Shown here in pieces: positions 4,138 to 57,725 of a DNA stretch of 64,000 nt. Positions within the stretch are counted from its first letter, which is position 1; every line of letters starts with the position of its first letter. Location of the stretch: positions 3,224,001 to 3,288,000 of the forward strand of contig NZ_RBKX01000001.1 in NCBI RefSeq assembly GCF_003634615.1. The letters are read 5' to 3'. The position numbers and the translations under genes are program-made. This DNA is from Flavobacterium sp. 102. GTDB lineage: Bacteria > Bacteroidota > Bacteroidia > Flavobacteriales > Flavobacteriaceae. The notes beneath the pieces were generated by a model that was not told the origin of the DNA, searched no databases, and saw only the letters and a program-made list of their open reading frames with translations.

Positions 4138-4248
4138 AGCTATTTCCCGCTTTCCGCAGTATCTTTTTTTGTCACATTGAGTGCATCCCGAAGTTTCGGG
4201 AGAAGTGCTTTTCTTAAAAAAAAGGATACTTGCTTCTATCGGGGCTAA
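4138..4248. repeat. Long hairpin, probable interspersed flavobacterial element
   Basis: About 110 bases between two genes that fold on themselves: AGCTATTTCCCGC at the left end, CTATCGGGGCTAA at the right, ATCTTTTTTT (4161-4170) facing the AAAAAAAAGGAT run near 4217-4227, and a perfect inner hairpin TCCCGAA-gt-TTCGGGA (4186-4201). From memory, similar blocks starting with CTATTTCCCGC and ending near ATCGGGGCTAA recur in Flavobacterium intergenic regions. That recollection is unverified. Confidence 0.55.
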
Positions 4249-4258
4249 TTAAAAAAAC

Positions 4259-50494: not shown

Positions 50495-51058
50495 ATGAAA
50501 AACTTAAAAACAATTGCGATTGCCTTATTAGTAGCTTTCGGGACGACAGCAGCTACAGCTCAAAACAAGAAGATTGATGCTTCTAAAAGTACTATCAACT
50601 GGGTTGGTAAAAAAGTAACCGGTGAACACAGCGGAACTATCAACTTTCAAGAAGGTATGTTGATTTTCAAAGGCAAAAAAGTAACCGGTGGAAACTTCAC
50701 TGTTGATATGACTTCTATAAATACAACCGATTTAAGCGGAGAATGGAAACAAAAATTAGACGGTCACTTAAAAGCAGATGATTTTTTTGGTACTGAAAAA
50801 TTCAAAACAGCTACTTTAAAATTTACTACAATCGCTGACAAAGGAAACGGTTTGTACACCGTTACTGCCGATTTAACAATCAAAGGCATTACAAACCCTG
50901 TAACATTTGATTTGACTGTAAAAGGAAACACAGCTTCAACCAAGTTAACTATTGACAGAACTAAATATGACATCAAATATGGTTCAAAAAGTTTCTTTGA
51001 CGTAGGTGACAAAGCTATTTATGACGATTTCGAATTGGCTATCAGCTTACAATTCTAA
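50495..51058 (+). CDS. YceI-family secreted lipid-binding protein
   Basis: A 187-residue protein with signal peptide MKNLKTIAIALLVAFGTTAATAQ and the YceI beta-barrel: STINWVGKKVTGEHSGTINFQEGMLIFKGKKVTGGNFTVDMTSINTTDLSGEWKQKLDGHLKADDFFGTEKFKTATLKFTTI. YceI proteins bind isoprenoid quinones or amphiphilic lipids in the periplasm. Operon partner of marR and the nitroreductase; it is followed by a terminator at 51084. Confidence 0.93.
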   Translation: MKNLKTIAIALLVAFGTTAATAQNKKIDASKSTINWVGKKVTGEHSGTINFQEGMLIFKGKKVTGGNFTVDMTSINTTDLSGEWKQKLDGHLKADDFFGTEKFKTATLKFTTIADKGNGLYTVTADLTIKGITNPVTFDLTVKGNTASTKLTIDRTKYDIKYGSKSFFDVGDKAIYDDFELAISLQF

Positions 51059-51083
51059 ACTGGGAATCATTGCTATGAAATCA

Positions 51084-51115
51084 AAACCTCGGAAAAATTT
51101 TCGAGGTTTTTTTAT
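51084..51115 (+). terminator. Terminator of the marR operon
   Basis: AAAACCTCG (51084-51092) pairs with CGAGGTTTT (51102-51110) and is followed by a T tract, 26 bases after the yceI stop codon. Confidence 0.88.
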
Positions 51116-51123
51116 TTTTATGT

Positions 51124-51153
51124 TTGAAATCTAAAAACACTTACCTACATTTG
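51124..51153 (+). promoter_or_regulatory. Promoter of the trp operon
   Basis: TTG (51124-51126) and TACATTTG (51146-51153), 19-base spacer, an excellent match to the Bacteroidetes promoter. Transcription should start near 51158-51162, just before the trp leader peptide. Confidence 0.8.
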
Positions 51154-51172
51154 TTTCATACAAAAAAAGAAA

Positions 51173-51229
51173 ATGAACAACATTTTAAACAATACTTGGT
51201 GGTGGAATAGTTTACGTCGAACGTCGTGA
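51173..51229 (+). CDS. trpL: trp operon leader peptide
   Basis: An 18-codon frame, ATG at 51173 and TGA at 51227-51229, encoding MNNILNNTWWWNSLRRTS. Three consecutive Trp codons (TGGTGGTGG, 51197-51205) are the hallmark of a Trp-responsive attenuator. It lies 20 bases behind a strong promoter match and before the terminator hairpin at 51270. Too short for ordinary gene prediction, so it is easily missed. Confidence 0.88.
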   Translation: MNNILNNTWWWNSLRRTS

Positions 51230-51290
51230 AATAGTCTACTATGAGTATATTTTAAAATCTAAATATCCGAAAAGGCTTGTCATTCACGAC
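51223..51290 (+). promoter_or_regulatory. Candidate antiterminator pairing of the trp attenuator
   Basis: GTCGTGAA at 51223-51230 (the leader stop region) is exactly complementary to TTCACGAC at 51283-51290 (loop plus start of the terminator 3-prime arm). These 8 pairs exclude the base of the terminator hairpin. A small competing hairpin ACGT-cga-ACGT (51214-51224) overlaps the upstream arm. Pairing assignment is inference from complementarity. Confidence 0.6.
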
Positions 51291-51303
51291 AAGCCTTTTT
51301 TTT
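51270..51303 (+). terminator. trp attenuator terminator
   Basis: AAAAGGCTTGTC (51270-51281) and GACAAGCCTTTT (51288-51299) form a perfect 12-base-pair stem with a six-base loop, followed by a T tract to 51303, and then trpE at 51321. Placing a perfect terminator between a promoter and trpE is only sensible as an attenuator. Confidence 0.9.
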
Positions 51304-51320
51304 ATGCTAAAAATTGAACT

Positions 51321-52715
51321 ATGAAAATTTATCAACTCCATACCAACTTCAAACAAATCCTTGCCGATACGATTACTCCGGTGAGTATTTATTTGAAAAT
51401 CAGAGACAAATTCCCAAACAGCATTTTGCTAGAAAGTAGTGATTATCACACAGCCGACAACAGTTTCTCCTACATCTGTTGCAATCCAATCGCTTCCATC
51501 AAACTGGAAAATAATAGTATGACAAAAACCTTTCCCGACGGAATTTCAGAAGAAACAGCTATTTCTATTAATACTAATCTTCCAAAAGTGATTGAAGATT
51601 TTGCTTCTCAATTTCAACCCGAAAAGAACAACTTTAAGTTCATCAACAACGGTTTGTTTGGTTATATCAGTTACGATGCGGTACAGTATTTCGAGAAAAT
51701 TGAGATTACCAAGAAAGCCCATGACTTATCCATTCCCGAATTGTATTACGCCGTATACCAAAACATTATTGCCATCAACCATTTCAAAAACGAAGCGTAT
51801 ATCTTTTGCCATAGCATTGACAACACCAATAACATCAAGGAAATCGAACAATTACTGCAAACCAAAACCTTCGCGAGTTACTCTTTTACTAAAGAAGGCG
51901 AAGCTATTTCTAATTTAACCGATGTAGAATTCAAAACCAATGTGGCTTTAGCCAAAAAACACTGTCATCGCGGCGATGTGTTCCAATTGGTTTTATCAAG
52001 ACGATTTTCGCAAGCGTTTAAAGGCGACGAATTCAATGTTTACAGAGCACTTCGCAATATCAATCCCTCGCCCTATTTGTTCTTTTTTGACTATGGAAAC
52101 TTCAAGATTTTTGGGTCTTCGCCCGAAGCGCAACTCGTTATCAAAAACAACCACGCCGAAATCCACCCGATTGCCGGAACTTTCAAGCGAACCGGCAATG
52201 ACGAGCAAGACGCTAATTTGGCCAAAAAACTATCCGAAGACGCCAAAGAAAACAGCGAACATGTCATGTTAGTCGATTTAGCCCGAAATGATTTAAGCCG
52301 AAATTGTACCGAAGTCAAAGTTGAGAAATACAAAGAAGTGCAATTCTTTTCACACGTCATTCACCTCGTTTCTAAAGTCACCGGAAAATTAACCGGAAGT
52401 TCTATGAAACTGGTTGCTAATACCTTTCCGGCTGGTACTTTAAGCGGTGCTCCAAAACACAAAGCGATGCAATTGATCGAAAGTATTGAGACTACCAACC
52501 GAACTTTTTACGGTGGCGCGATAGGTTTTATGGACTTTGAAGGCAACTTCAATCACGCAATCATGATTCGGACTTTTTTGAGTAAAAACCACCAACTGCA
52601 TTACCAAGCCGGTGCCGGAATCGTAGAAAGTTCAACCGAAGAAAACGAAATGCAGGAAGTTTATAATAAATTGGGCGCACTAAACAAAGCGCTGGAATTA
52701 GCAGAAACCATTTAA
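51321..52715 (+). CDS. trpE: Anthranilate synthase component I
   Basis: First committed step of tryptophan synthesis, chorismate plus ammonia to anthranilate, 464 residues. The LLESSDY motif (feedback region, usual LLES) is near residue 37. The catalytic domain has DVFQLVLSRRFSQAF, SPEAQLVI, HPIAGTFKRTGNDEQD, DLARNDLSRNC and the MKLVANTFPAGTLSGAPKHKAMQLIE stretch. Regulated by the attenuator 18 bases upstream of its start. Followed by trpG after 9 bases. Confidence 0.97.
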   Translation: MKIYQLHTNFKQILADTITPVSIYLKIRDKFPNSILLESSDYHTADNSFSYICCNPIASIKLENNSMTKTFPDGISEETAISINTNLPKVIEDFASQFQPEKNNFKFINNGLFGYISYDAVQYFEKIEITKKAHDLSIPELYYAVYQNIIAINHFKNEAYIFCHSIDNTNNIKEIEQLLQTKTFASYSFTKEGEAISNLTDVEFKTNVALAKKHCHRGDVFQLVLSRRFSQAFKGDEFNVYRALRNINPSPYLFFFDYGNFKIFGSSPEAQLVIKNNHAEIHPIAGTFKRTGNDEQDANLAKKLSEDAKENSEHVMLVDLARNDLSRNCTEVKVEKYKEVQFFSHVIHLVSKVTGKLTGSSMKLVANTFPAGTLSGAPKHKAMQLIESIETTNRTFYGGAIGFMDFEGNFNHAIMIRTFLSKNHQLHYQAGAGIVESSTEENEMQEVYNKLGALNKALELAETI

Positions 52716-52724
52716 CTTTACAAC

Positions 52725-53291
52725 ATGAAAATAGCCGTTATCGACAACTACGACAGTTTCACCTACAATTTGGTTCATTATCTCGAAGATTTGGACGGAA
52801 AAGTAACTGTTTTCCGCAACGACGAGTTAGAACTGGAAGAACTCGAATCATTCGATAAAATCTTGCTGTCACCTGGTCCCGGAATTCCCAACGAAGCCGG
52901 ATTATTGAAGCTAATCATCGCTAAATATGCTTCAAGCAAAAGTATTCTAGGCGTTTGTTTAGGTCAACAAGCCATCGGAGAAGTTTTTGGCGGAAGCCTG
53001 ACGAATCTAGACAAGGTCTATCACGGCGTAGCGACCAAAGTAAACCAAACGGTTACTGACGAATCACTATTTAATGATTTACCTGCCGAATTTGAAGTCG
53101 GGCGCTATCATTCTTGGGTGGTCAATACCAATGATTTTCCGGAAGTTTTAGAAATCACTTCTACAGATGATAATGGCGAAATTATGTCTTTGCGCCATAA
53201 AACCTTTGACGTAAAAGGCGTGCAATTCCACCCCGAAAGCGTGCTCACGCCTCACGGAAAAACCATTTTAAAAAACTGGCTTATCGCTTAG
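52725..53291 (+). CDS. trpG: Anthranilate synthase component II (glutamine amidotransferase)
   Basis: Supplies ammonia from glutamine to TrpE; 188 residues. Class I amidotransferase with IDNYDSFTYNLVHYLEDL at the N-terminus, nucleophile in ILGVCLGQQAIGEVFGG (Cys 84 or so), RYHSWVV and the catalytic His-Glu pair in VQFHPESVLT. Not fused to TrpE or TrpD. Confidence 0.97.
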   Translation: MKIAVIDNYDSFTYNLVHYLEDLDGKVTVFRNDELELEELESFDKILLSPGPGIPNEAGLLKLIIAKYASSKSILGVCLGQQAIGEVFGGSLTNLDKVYHGVATKVNQTVTDESLFNDLPAEFEVGRYHSWVVNTNDFPEVLEITSTDDNGEIMSLRHKTFDVKGVQFHPESVLTPHGKTILKNWLIA

Positions 53292-53309
53292 TTTGCTGTC
53301 TGCTCAACG

Positions 53310-53335
53310 TCGACGGTAAACTTTTACGCTGTCGA
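53310..53335 (+). other. Hairpin in the trpG-trpD gap
   Basis: TCGAC-g-GTAAA (53310-53320) and TTTAC-gct-GTCGA (53323-53335) form two five-base stems in the only sizeable gap (73 bases) of the operon. There is no T tract, so a terminator is unlikely. It may slow processing or decay of the message. Confidence 0.5.
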
Positions 53336-53364
53336 TTGTCGGCAGTTCACTAAAACTAAGTATC

Positions 53365-54363
53365 ATGAAAACCATCTTAAACCGATTAATCAATCACGAA
53401 ACCCTAACTGCAGCAGAAGCCAAAACCGTTTTGGTTAACATCTCTTCAGGGCAATACAATCCGAGTCAAATTGCGTCATTCCTAACGGTTTATATGATGC
53501 GAAACATCACCATCGAAGAGCTTTCCGGCTTTCGCGAAGCACTATTAGAGCTTTGCATCGCCATTGACTTTTCTGCCTACAATACCATCGATTTGTGCGG
53601 AACCGGCGGCGATGGGAAAGATACCTTCAACATCTCAACTTTAGCGTCATTTGTCACAGCCGGTGCCGGAATTCAGGTTGCCAAACACGGTAACTACGGC
53701 GTTTCGTCTATTTCGGGATCAAGTAATGTTATGGAAACCTTGGGCGTAAAATTCAGTAACGAGAGCAGCTTTTTAACCAAATGCTTAGAAGAGGCGAATA
53801 TCGCAATCCTACACGCACCGTTATTCCATCCGGCGATGAAAAACGTTGGGCCGATTCGAAAAGAATTAGGCGTCAAAACCTTCTTTAACATGCTCGGACC
53901 CATGGTGAATCCATCATTTCCCAAAAACCAATTGGTGGGCGTTTTTAGTTTGGAACTCGCACGCATGTATGCTTATTTGTACCAAAACACTGCGGTTAAC
54001 TATTCAATTCTGCATGCTTTAGACGGCTATGATGAGATTTCGTTAACCGCTGAAGCTAAAATCATTACCAAATCTACGGAAAGTATGGTCAATGCTAATG
54101 ATTTCAACTTATCCAAACTAGCTTTCGAAGACATCAAAGGCGGAACTACCATCGAAAAATCAGCCCATATCTTTATGCAAATCATCTCAGGAAACGGTAC
54201 CGAAGCCCAGCAAAATGTGGTTTGTGCTAATGCCGCTCTGGCGATAGCAACGGTTGAAAACACCAGTCTTTTAAACGCTTTCGCAAAAGCTAAAGAAAGT
54301 TTACAGTCCGGAAAAGCCTTAGAGAAATTGCAAAAACTCCAACAAATCAGTCAAGCATCATGA
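53365..54363 (+). CDS. trpD: Anthranilate phosphoribosyltransferase
   Basis: Joins anthranilate to PRPP; 332 residues. Diagnostic CGTGGDGKDTFNISTLASFVTAGAGIQVAKHGNYGVSSISGSSNVMETLG is the PRPP/Mg site. HPAMKNVGPIRKELGVKTFFNMLGPMVNP follows. Its stop codon overlaps the trpC ATG by four bases (ATGA). Confidence 0.97.
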   Translation: MKTILNRLINHETLTAAEAKTVLVNISSGQYNPSQIASFLTVYMMRNITIEELSGFREALLELCIAIDFSAYNTIDLCGTGGDGKDTFNISTLASFVTAGAGIQVAKHGNYGVSSISGSSNVMETLGVKFSNESSFLTKCLEEANIAILHAPLFHPAMKNVGPIRKELGVKTFFNMLGPMVNPSFPKNQLVGVFSLELARMYAYLYQNTAVNYSILHALDGYDEISLTAEAKIITKSTESMVNANDFNLSKLAFEDIKGGTTIEKSAHIFMQIISGNGTEAQQNVVCANAALAIATVENTSLLNAFAKAKESLQSGKALEKLQKLQQISQAS

Positions 54364-55145
54364 ACCTACTAGAACAAATCATAACAAGCAAAAAAAGAGA
54401 AGTAGCTTTAAAGAAAAGTGTGATTTCTACCAATCAATTGGAGAATACGGCTTTATTCAATGCTAAAACCAATTCGTTAAGCAAATCAATCATTAACTTA
54501 CCTTTTGGAATTATCGCCGAACACAAACGCCGTTCACCTTCGAAAGCGACAATCAATCACAATTTGTCTGTGGAAGAAGTGGTAAAAGGCTATGAAAACG
54601 CCGGCGCAAGTGGGATTTCGGTTTTGACAGACAGTCAGTACTTTGGTGGATCTTTAGACGATTTACTTTTGGCGAAGGCCTCAGTAAACACACCGCTATT
54701 GCGCAAAGAATTCATCATCGATGAGTACCAAATTTTAGAAGCCAAAGCCAATGGTGCCGATGCTATTTTACTGATTGCCTCTGTTTTGACCAAAGCCGAA
54801 ATCAAATCATTATCAGAGTTTGCTCATTCTATTGCTTTGGAAGTACTATTGGAGGTACACAATCTGGAGGAATTGGAGAAAAGCATTATGCCGAGTCTTG
54901 ATATCATTGGCGTGAATAATAGAAATCTCAAGACATTCGAAGTGAGTTTGCAGACCAGCATTGATTTGGTTACCCAAATCCCAAATGACTTTGTTAAGAT
55001 TTCTGAAAGTGGTTTGACAACAACTGATGACATACGATTGCTAAAAAGCTACGGATTTCAAGGCTTTCTAATCGGAGAAAACTTTATGAAAACGGATGAT
55101 CCCGGTGCGGCTTTGGAACAATTCATCAATCAATTGAAAGCGTAA
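54360..55145 (+). CDS. trpC: Indole-3-glycerol phosphate synthase
   Basis: Ring closure to indole-3-glycerol phosphate; 261 residues, TIM barrel. LPFGIIAEHKRRSPSKATINH carries the catalytic Glu/Lys, LLRKEFIIDEYQILEAKANGADAILLIASVL and DIIGVNNRNLKTFEV are the later strands, and KISESGLTTTDDIRLLKSYGFQGFLIGENFMK ends the barrel. Not fused to TrpF, unlike in enteric bacteria. Overlaps trpD by four and trpF by one base. Confidence 0.97.
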   Translation: MNLLEQIITSKKREVALKKSVISTNQLENTALFNAKTNSLSKSIINLPFGIIAEHKRRSPSKATINHNLSVEEVVKGYENAGASGISVLTDSQYFGGSLDDLLLAKASVNTPLLRKEFIIDEYQILEAKANGADAILLIASVLTKAEIKSLSEFAHSIALEVLLEVHNLEELEKSIMPSLDIIGVNNRNLKTFEVSLQTSIDLVTQIPNDFVKISESGLTTTDDIRLLKSYGFQGFLIGENFMKTDDPGAALEQFINQLKA

Positions 55146-55777
55146 TGGAAACAAAAATCAAAATATGCGGCATGAAGTTTCCTGAAAACATTATGGAAAT
55201 AGCAGCAGTACAACCTGACTATTTAGGCTTTATTTTCTACGATAAATCGCCGAGAAACTTTGAAAATGAAATCCCTGAATTGAAAAAGGCGATCCAAAAA
55301 GTAGGCGTTTTCGTCAATGCTACTTTGGAATATATTATGGAAAAAGTTCACCAGAACAATTTGGATTTAGTACAATTACACGGTGAAGAAAGTCCGGAAC
55401 TTTGCCATCTATTACAACAAAGAAAGCTTAAAGTGATAAAATCGTTTAATGTAGACAACCAATTTAATTTTAATAGTTTAAGCATTTATTACAATTACTG
55501 CAACTACTTTTTATTCGACACCAAAGGCAAGTTATACGGAGGCAACGGAACCGCATTCGATTGGCGTATTTTGGAAAGGTATTATTTAAACAAGCCTTAC
55601 TTTCTCAGTGGCGGCATTGGTCAAGAAAGCCTAAGCGATTTAAAAACATTCTTCCAAAAAGACTATGCTAAGAAATGCCTAGCCATCGACCTCAACAGTC
55701 GATTCGAGATTGAACCCGGATTAAAAGAATCGATAGCTCTAAAAACATTCATTCAAAATTTAAAACAACAACCATGA
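55145..55777 (+). CDS. trpF: Phosphoribosylanthranilate isomerase
   Basis: Amadori rearrangement of phosphoribosylanthranilate; 210 residues. [36 protein letters not shown] opens the barrel with the catalytic Cys, [35 protein letters not shown] follows, and the [19 protein letters not shown] segment holds the catalytic Asp. The C-terminal SGGIGQE and [13 protein letters not shown] match the family. Overlaps trpB by four bases. Confidence 0.96.
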
Positions 55778-56961
55778 AATCAAGATACAGTGTCAACGAA
55801 AAAGGCTTCTACGGCGAATTTGGCGGTGCTTTTATCCCCGAAATGCTCTACCCAAATGTGGAAAAATTGCGCCGGCAGTATTTAAAAATCTCATCCGAAC
55901 CTTCTTTTCAAGACGAATTTAAAGCACTTCTAAAGGATTATGTCGGTCGCCCTACTCCGTTATACTATGCTGAGCGACTTTCGGGACAATTCGGCGCTAA
56001 AATCTACCTTAAACGCGAAGACTTGTGTCACACCGGCGCACACAAAATCAACAACACGATAGGACAAATCATTTTAGCCAAGCGATTGGGCAAAACCCGA
56101 ATTATAGCCGAAACCGGCGCGGGCCAACACGGCGTTGCCACGGCAACGGTTTGTGCGTTAATGGACTTGCGATGTATTGTGTATATGGGAGAAGTCGATA
56201 TCGAACGCCAAGCACCGAATGTGGCGCGCATGAAAATGCTCGGCGCCGAAGTTCGTCCGGCGAGTTCCGGGTCTAAAACCCTGAAAGACGCTACCAATGA
56301 AGCCATTCGCGATTGGATTAGCAATCCCGAAGATACGTTTTATATTATCGGTTCTGTAGTTGGCCCACATCCTTATCCCGACATGGTCGCGCGGTTCCAA
56401 AGCGTGATTTCAGAAGAGATTAAAAGTCAGTTACTCGAAAAAGAAAACCGTAAAAACCCTGATTACATCATCGCCTGTATTGGAGGCGGAAGCAATGCTG
56501 CCGGGGCTTTCTATCACTTTTTAGATGAAAAAAGCGTAAAGTTGATTGCCGTGGAAGCTGCCGGAAAAGGTGTTGATTCCGGCGAAAGTGCCGCTACTTC
56601 AGTCTTGGGCAAAATAGGCATTATTCACGGAAGCAAGACTTTGTTGATGCAAACGAATGATGGCCAAATCACCGAACCCTACTCTATTTCAGCGGGATTG
56701 GATTATCCCGGCGTTGGCCCGATGCACGCTAATTTGCACCAAACCCAAAGAGCAGAATTTATTGCCATTACTGACGATGAAGCGATGCAAGCCGGAATCG
56801 AATTAGCCCAAACCGAAGGCATCATTCCGGCGATAGAAAGCGCTCATGCTTTTGCCGTTTTGAAGCATAAAAAATTCCTACCAAATGATGTGGTGGTTAT
56901 CAATTTATCCGGTCGTGGCGACAAAGACTTGAATACTTATATTAACTATTTTAAATTGTAG
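55774..56961 (+). CDS. trpB: Tryptophan synthase beta chain
   Basis: PLP enzyme condensing indole and serine; 395 residues. The PLP lysine is in [20 protein letters not shown] (HK), [28 protein letters not shown] is next, and [15 protein letters not shown] is the phosphate-binding loop. Ends [12 protein letters not shown]. Classic TrpB1 type, always paired with TrpA. Two bases separate its stop codon from the trpA start. Confidence 0.98.
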
Positions 56962-56963
56962 AA

Positions 56964-57725
56964 ATGAATCGTATCCAACATAAATTATCAAACGAAAAAA
57001 AAATACTATCTATCTATTTTACAGCAGGATTTCCTATGTTAAACGATACTAAAAGTTTAATAGAGAAATTAGCTAAAAACAACGTTGACATGATAGAAAT
57101 CGGACTGCCTTTCAGCGATTCTTTAGCCGATGGTCCTACCATACAAGCAAGCTCTACGCAAGCATTAAAAAATGGCATGACAACAACTATTCTTTTTGAG
57201 CAATTAAAAGACATCCGAAGCACGATTGATATCCCGCTGATCATTATGGGTTATTTTAATCCCATGCTACAATTTGGCGTAGAACATTTCTTGAAAAACT
57301 GTCAAGAAACCGGTATCGATGGTTTAATCATCCCTGATTTACCGCTTGAAATCTACCTTTCAGAATACAAAGAACTGTTTGACGCCTATGGCATTGCAAT
57401 GATTTTCTTGATTACACCACAAACTTCTGAGGAAAGAATTCGATTGATCGATGCCAATTCGAATTCGTTTATCTACATGGTCAGCAGTGCGAGTGTAACG
57501 GGAAGCAGAGATAGTTTTGACAAAAATCAGCTCGCGTATTTTGAGAGAATTGCGGCTATGAAGTTGAAAAATCCTCAAATTATCGGATTCGGAATTAGCA
57601 ATAAAAGGACGTCTGAACAAGCTATTAAGCATCAAAAAGGCGCCATTATCGGAAGCAGTTTTATACAATATATCTCGGAAAACGGAATTAACAATATTGA
57701 AAATTTCATCCGAAATATACTTTAG
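56964..57725 (+). CDS. trpA: Tryptophan synthase alpha chain
   Basis: Cleaves indole-3-glycerol phosphate to indole for TrpB; 253 residues, TIM barrel. Catalytic Glu and Asp lie in NVDMIEIGLPFSDSLADGPTIQASSTQAL; this has Ser where most homologues have Pro in FSDP. GYFNPMLQFGVEHFLKNCQETGIDGLIIPDLPLE, VSSASVTGSR and GFGISNKRTSEQA complete the barrel. Last gene of the operon. Confidence 0.96.
   Translation: MNRIQHKLSNEKKILSIYFTAGFPMLNDTKSLIEKLAKNNVDMIEIGLPFSDSLADGPTIQASSTQALKNGMTTTILFEQLKDIRSTIDIPLIIMGYFNPMLQFGVEHFLKNCQETGIDGLIIPDLPLEIYLSEYKELFDAYGIAMIFLITPQTSEERIRLIDANSNSFIYMVSSASVTGSRDSFDKNQLAYFERIAAMKLKNPQIIGFGISNKRTSEQAIKHQKGAIIGSSFIQYISENGINNIENFIRNIL

Follow-up and report, generated by a model that had tools for sequence, protein, structure and literature searches.

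The trp operon of Flavobacterium sp. 102 (trpEGDCFBA) is very probably controlled by ribosome-mediated transcription attenuation through its leader, a member of the RNA family Bacteroid-trp, and a response to tryptophan is predicted. Such control had been proposed in a sequence-only reading of this DNA, and it is supported here by the Trp codons, the arm-target pairing, the position of the leader stop and the terminator, which are conserved and, where changed, co-vary. Judged from the sequence and its comparison with relatives, all parts of the attenuator are present and conserved, and the antiterminator arm co-varies with its target. The leader is a new copy of a known family, i.e. the element, its place and its presumed role are already in print, while the tested antiterminator helix, the frame-independent arm and the hypothesis that the arm captures the terminator loop ('loop capture') are new here.

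The leader, its RNA family and the trp operon

All coordinates refer to the window, i.e. the whole stretch of 64 000 nt that was analysed, and the features lie on the plus strand unless stated otherwise. Downstream of the leader, Pfam profiles identify a complete trp operon that extends from 51321 to 57725 and comprises, in this order, trpE (51321-52715; PF04715 and PF00425), trpG (52725-53291; PF00117), trpD (53365-54363; PF02885 and PF00591), trpC (54360-55145; PF00218), trpF (55145-55777; PF00697), trpB (55774-56961; PF00291), which sits between trpF and trpA, and trpA (56964-57725; PF00290). Upstream of the leader lies a YceI-like gene with its own terminator-like hairpin at 51083-51110.

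The leader peptide MNNILNNTWWWNSLRRTS is encoded by an ORF of 18 codons (51173-51229) with three consecutive Trp (TGG) codons at 51197-51205 and the stop codon TGA at 51227-51229; here the sequence-only reading was right to the base. In the minimum-energy fold, hairpin 1 (51182-51258) encloses the Trp codons and would hold the antiterminator arm when no ribosome is present. This arm, GUCGUGAA (51223-51230), is identified by sequence, co-variation and folding, and the leader stop lies within it, the overlap that had been described. As DNA it reads GTCGTGAA and is exactly complementary to TTCACGAC at 51283-51290, confirming the eight-base pairing claimed earlier. The target, in RNA UUCACGAC, is recognised from sequence and co-variation and comprises five loop bases of the intrinsic terminator and the three bases with which its 3' arm begins. 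This terminator was also present as claimed (51270-51299), with arms at 51270-51281 and 51288-51299 forming a perfect 12 bp hairpin with a 6-nt loop, followed by a T tract to about 51303; besides sequence and comparison, it was found by a terminator scan, which gave two terminator-like sites in 50900-51400 vs 0.2 expected, one of them (51269-51300) ahead of trpE. The region 51150-51310 folds at -43.4 kcal/mol (z -5.47), which none of 200 shuffles equalled. The exact arm-terminator pattern occurs once in the genome, as does the match to the RNA family.

That match, to RF01692 (Bacteroid-trp), covers the leader, hairpin 1 and the 5' arm of the terminator (51153-51281). With 75.5 bits it lies above the cut-off of 49, it spans model positions 1-131 of 131 in cmscan, and its E value is 1.4e-9 when 801 bases are searched and 1.1e-7 when the whole window is; the other marks of the family, i.e. 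a place upstream of Trp genes and tandem Trp codons in a short ORF, are present as well. The leader therefore shares with the family both the full-model match and the place before a trp operon. The printed consensus structure contains hairpin 1, while the model stops in the 5' half of the terminator and its structure line holds neither a terminator nor an antiterminator pair, so that the pairs tested here lie outside the model. At gathering thresholds, a scan of the whole window with Rfam gave nothing beyond this match and a Flavo-1 RNA (RF01705) elsewhere, at 4139-4250 on the minus strand (45.9 bits, just above its cut-off of 42). The trpB motif, Atu_C9, GibS and other Rfam names remained below their gathering scores and were disregarded.

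How widely such a leader had been described in Bacteroidetes was left open by the sequence-only reading; the answer is Rfam RF01692, which has been in print since 2010. According to the accessible parts of the respective papers, a table of Weinberg et al. 2010 (PMC2864571) gives Bacteroid-trp as probably cis-regulatory in Bacteroidetes, a copy upstream of the trp operon of F. psychrophilum was likened to the E. coli attenuator (2019, PMC6414381), and a 2021 transcriptome of that species provided strong indications of attenuation by leader peptides ahead of amino-acid operons (PMC9723704). The F. psychrophilum copy is the same element in the same genus and receives a bare mention in the accessible text of PMC6414381, which presents neither a measurement nor an analysis of its helices. 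The accessible parts of PMC7366714, PMC4833913, PMC8079631 and PMC1262725 contained nothing on the element, and no experiment on it was found in a literature coverage that lay outside most subscription journals and supplements.

Regarding transcription and translation starts, the consensus promoter claimed by the sequence-only reading did not hold up: the E. coli-type match before the leader reaches 9 of 12 positions and is at chance level, with three such sites on both strands vs 2.2 expected, and was therefore rejected. At 51123-51153 there is a box TTTG-N19-TACATTTG, which we take to be a candidate promoter of the Bacteroidota type. By itself this box is not rare (7 in the window vs 4.76 expected); its candidacy is supported by TAnnTTTG, which 159 of 167 non-redundant leaders have in the 75 nt preceding their leader start, against 10.7 expected from shuffled sequences; 137 of the 159 also have TTG 14-25 nt further upstream. 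In these 167 leaders the last 12 nt before the leader start are A-rich, and a Shine-Dalgarno-like motif is found within the last 16 nt in only five.

Conservation and co-variation among relatives

When loci were picked by TrpE alone, using no leader feature, each of the best 80 of 490 had TGGTGGTGG, TCGTGA and TCACGAC in the 450 bases that precede trpE, and the run of three Trp codons was likewise kept in 80/80. The nearest TrpE relatives among these are Flavobacterium, and 75 of the best 80 of 490 carry this name in their title, so that the conservation shows persistence more than independence. One record with the same kind of leader and a TrpE 85 % identical is titled a Bifidobacterium breve MAG (L038, CALPIE020000103.1), and is probably mislabelled or a contaminated bin.

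Genome counts with RF01692 (E <= 0.001, samples partly overlapping) are lower bounds, since 8 to 62 candidates were scored per genome under stricter filters. Matches were found in at least 208 of 299 genomes of the same family, and in at least 42 of a phylum-wide draw of 395, these 42 again belonging for the most part to the same family. In three other families of the class at least 35/59, 15/41 and 4/41 genomes had a match, and in another order at least 7/99. A few distant leaders are followed by a gene that was, by eye, trpB-like (L134, L276 and L278) or trpD-like (L270-L272), suggesting that tryptophan is still the theme there.

For the comparison of leaders, 271 of 278 loci were parsed, reduced to 167 non-redundant ones by shared 8-mers and aligned with MAFFT. 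An alignment of this kind had been suggested by the sequence-only reading, and it bears out the expected conservation: besides the Trp run before trpE, the pairs of arm and target and of the terminator are kept. The Trp run has three codons in 153 leaders and two in 14; as the parser demanded tandem Trp, only the third codon is informative. Over the eight arm-target pairs, 1157 of 1323 cells (87.5 %) were standard, compared with a mean of 1116.4 (sd 4.0, maximum 1129) in 500 shuffles that ignored descent, and registers slid by 1-3 gave 19.8-52.0 %. The core of the arm (51224-51229) pairs in 151-165 of 167 leaders, while the outer pairs are loose, i.e. 51223:51290 was standard in 103/167 and 51230:51283 in 87/154. 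Both sides changed at 51228:51285 (G-C 133, A-U 25, G-U 6; n=167) and at 51230:51283 (A-U 42, G-C 29, G-U 10; n=154). The former exchange tracks the arm word, UCGUAA arms going with targets such as CUUACG or CUUGCG and UCGUGA arms mostly with UCACGA; in two leaders (L204 and L226) a GUCGCAA arm faces a UUGCGAC target.

Swapping partners between leaders gave the same picture. Native arms and targets pair at -8.15 kcal/mol vs -7.11 (sd 0.09) for permuted ones over all 167 leaders, at -5.88 vs -4.68 in 40 distant leaders and at -8.87 vs -8.60 in the 127 others, which are mostly Flavobacteriaceae, with none of 500 permutations as good in each case, descent being ignored throughout. A contiguous helix of fewer than six pairs was seen in 24/167 leaders with the target window set to the loop and three bases, and part of these short helices is due to a shortened target window; three leaders (L218, L270 and L271) have 3-4 pairs and no convincing helix. 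In the terminator, 1935 of 1996 cells were standard (shuffle mean 1844.8). The apex of hairpin 1 was rejected as a conserved helix: with 653 of 979 cells pairing (66.7 %) it exceeds its shuffles (mean 602.5, sd 4.3); sliding the register by -3, however, still gives 62.3 % and more changes on both sides.

In a distant family, the leader carries GGCAGCCUC, which can pair with the terminator 5' arm. In L222 it is GGCAGCC that meets GGGUUGCC of this arm, a much more stable pairing (-15.3 kcal/mol) than that of arm and target, and L223 and L272, judged by eye, have the same words. These three leaders can thus form what appears to be a different antiterminator within the same RNA family, and the alternative pairing of L222 implies that the attenuator design is not uniform across the phylum.

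The arm is kept throughout, irrespective of its frame relative to the leader frame (127, 26 and 14 of 167 leaders in the three frames); as far as these sequences tell, it is an RNA word and not a string of codons. The leader stop lies inside the arm at the same offset in 108/167; counted from the arm start, it falls between -12 and +18 nt in 160/167, stops being frequent in AT-rich DNA, and further away (+23 to +38) in seven. The distance from the first parsed TGG to the start of the arm is 20-30 nt in all 167 leaders and 26 nt in 107 of them. The ribosome footprint usually reaches about 12-15 nt beyond the A site; therefore, a ribosome on any of the Trp codons would free the arm, and one at the stop would cover it.

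Folding states, proposed mechanism and rival explanations

Growing transcripts were folded with ViennaRNA, the start points representing assumed ribosome coverage. With no ribosome (folding from 51158), the apex of hairpin 1 formed at 0.96, the antiterminator stayed at 0.00 and the terminator rose as it was made. With the ribosome on the Trp codons (from 51213), the antiterminator reached 0.96-0.97 at ends 51290-51293, and the terminator took over from 51295. With the ribosome at the stop (from 51241, everything to 51240 being covered) the antiterminator was at 0.00. These models recover three states, and the computed switch has the right sign for ribosome-controlled attenuation. Once the transcript is complete, with ends at 51299-51303, the terminator prevails whatever the state (0.96-0.99); as the complete hairpin is always the stablest, antitermination must be kinetic. 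The antiterminator directly blocks only three of the 12 terminator pairs, and the computed folds predict the two structures, which are conserved in relatives, to be mutually exclusive. The segment 51218-51290 folds moderately better than its shuffles (z -2.23, 6/200 as good).

We propose the following course of events. Without a ribosome, hairpin 1 would close over the Trp codons and lock the arm, and the terminator would form. With ample Trp-tRNA, the ribosome would reach the UGA inside the arm and cover the latter, again allowing the terminator to form. When Trp-tRNA is scarce, the ribosome would halt on UGG-UGG-UGG and open hairpin 1, so that the arm, 20-26 nt downstream of the Trp codons, would be free to pair with the loop and the first three 3'-arm bases of the terminator as these emerge. 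With its loop captured, the terminator hairpin could not nucleate, and RNA polymerase would continue into trpE. The stalling, the tryptophan response and the kinetic antitermination are the steps that we infer.

Two other explanations of the leader have to be considered. The hairpin might be a constitutive terminator, the ORF and the pairing being by-products and trpE being reached by readthrough or from another promoter. Indeed, no computed state of the full-length transcript has a structure more stable than the terminator, but it would have to be explained why the Trp run, the arm and the target are kept together before trpE in all of the best 80 of 490 loci and why arm and target co-vary; moreover, the upstream gene already has a terminator of its own. 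We therefore regard this explanation as very unlikely. The structured leader before trpE would also suit a sensor of a protein or metabolite, such as a TRAP-like system or a tryptophan riboswitch, in place of a sensor of the ribosome. What speaks against it is an ORF with consecutive Trp codons that does not keep a fixed frame with respect to the arm behind it, as well as the window's only gathering-level Rfam matches, i.e. RF01692 and Flavo-1. In addition, the genome of Flavobacterium sp. 102 gave no profile match to TRAP (PF02081), for which the control Bacillus subtilis was positive, nor to TrpR (PF01371), for which the control genomes were positive; control of the trp operon by either was thus rejected, and the profile search saw no other tryptophan regulators of these kinds in this genome. 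Such a sensor is the most improbable of the readings considered.

A further proposal refines attenuation by the ribosome and makes the antiterminator bipartite, i.e. the bases AGUCU at 51233-51237 would take AGGCU of the terminator 5' arm (51273-51277) before the arm takes the loop and the 3' arm. This accessory pairing stands at 0.90 in the stalled-ribosome folds at ends 51287-51293, and could, in these models, act earlier than the arm-target pairing. Over the 167 leaders the complementarity of AGUCU is -5.20 vs -4.55 (sd 0.11) for shuffled downstream segments, but permuted partners were as good in 15/300 cases overall, 21/300 in the 40 distant leaders and 168/300 in the 127 others. The pairing is suggestive, and we consider a bipartite antiterminator possible but rather unlikely.

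Returning to attenuation by the ribosome, the enteric logic that the sequence-only reading had seen in this leader holds for the role of the ribosome and fails for the target of the antiterminator. Shared with the E. coli trp attenuator are the Trp codons, an arm covered by the terminating ribosome and three mutually exclusive pairings. The E. coli antiterminator pairs with the terminator 5' arm, whereas the target here is the loop together with the first bases of the 3' arm; likewise unlike in E. coli, the stop codon lies inside the antiterminator arm and leaders rarely show a Shine-Dalgarno-like motif. RNA polymerase has a footprint of about 14 nt, from which we infer that the target would leave the enzyme only when the latter is at or near the U tract. 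This timing would be the least ordinary feature of the leader. As far as the accessible text of PMC1262725 goes, trp attenuators of Actinobacteria likewise combine two or three successive UGG codons with alternative hairpins ahead of trp operons, but with conserved gGCC-rGCy-GGCC triples, the UCGUGA arm being a feature of the Bacteroidota side. It is tempting to speculate, if with rather more doubt than confidence, that the trp leaders of Bacteroidota represent a separate attenuator design, loop capture, in which an RNA word of the stop region traps the loop of the terminator and the first bases of its 3' arm as they leave the polymerase, antitermination being decided on the U tract, i.e. later than in enterics, in leaders that lack a Shine-Dalgarno motif.

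A histidine leader and the wider meaning

Flavobacterium sp. 102 also has a leader peptide with a run of His codons, MNTIIAQLHHHHSCNQAS, followed by a terminator before hisG (locus L279; hisG itself at 878778-879242 of contig C1, in contig numbering, minus strand). A His-codon run before hisG is also present in 24 of 29 relatives' loci (L281-L309), hisG itself having been found in 123/149 genomes. In all 25 His leaders, preset patterns located an arm NNNNRGCG close to the leader stop and the word CGYYTGAG in the terminator, so that much of their pairing is built into the search. The bases that the patterns leave free pair in 21-25 of the 25 leaders, one pair being A-U in 12, G-U in nine and G-C in four. 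Loop capture was entertained by eye for the His leader as well, based on a 9 bp match of the segment after the stop with the terminator loop, and dropped because the pairing common to its relatives, CUCARGCG with CGUYUGAG, involves the end of the terminator 5' arm and the loop. No Rfam match at gathering cut-offs was obtained in the four loci searched, and no report of histidine leaders under the term 'Flavobacteri-' was found in the literature covered, most subscription journals lying outside it.

The present analysis ties a catalogued RNA family, little studied in the literature covered, to a concrete, testable mechanism, naming the eight bases that would compete and the place of the ribosome for each outcome. 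Natural variants, i.e. arms with UGA or UAA and the GCAA/UUGC swaps, already test the arm-target part of this mechanism. Should loop capture be true, the timing of antitermination would differ from the textbook case. Finally, the His leader in this genome and in 24/29 relatives' loci suggests that attenuation is a usual control of the amino-acid operons of the family.
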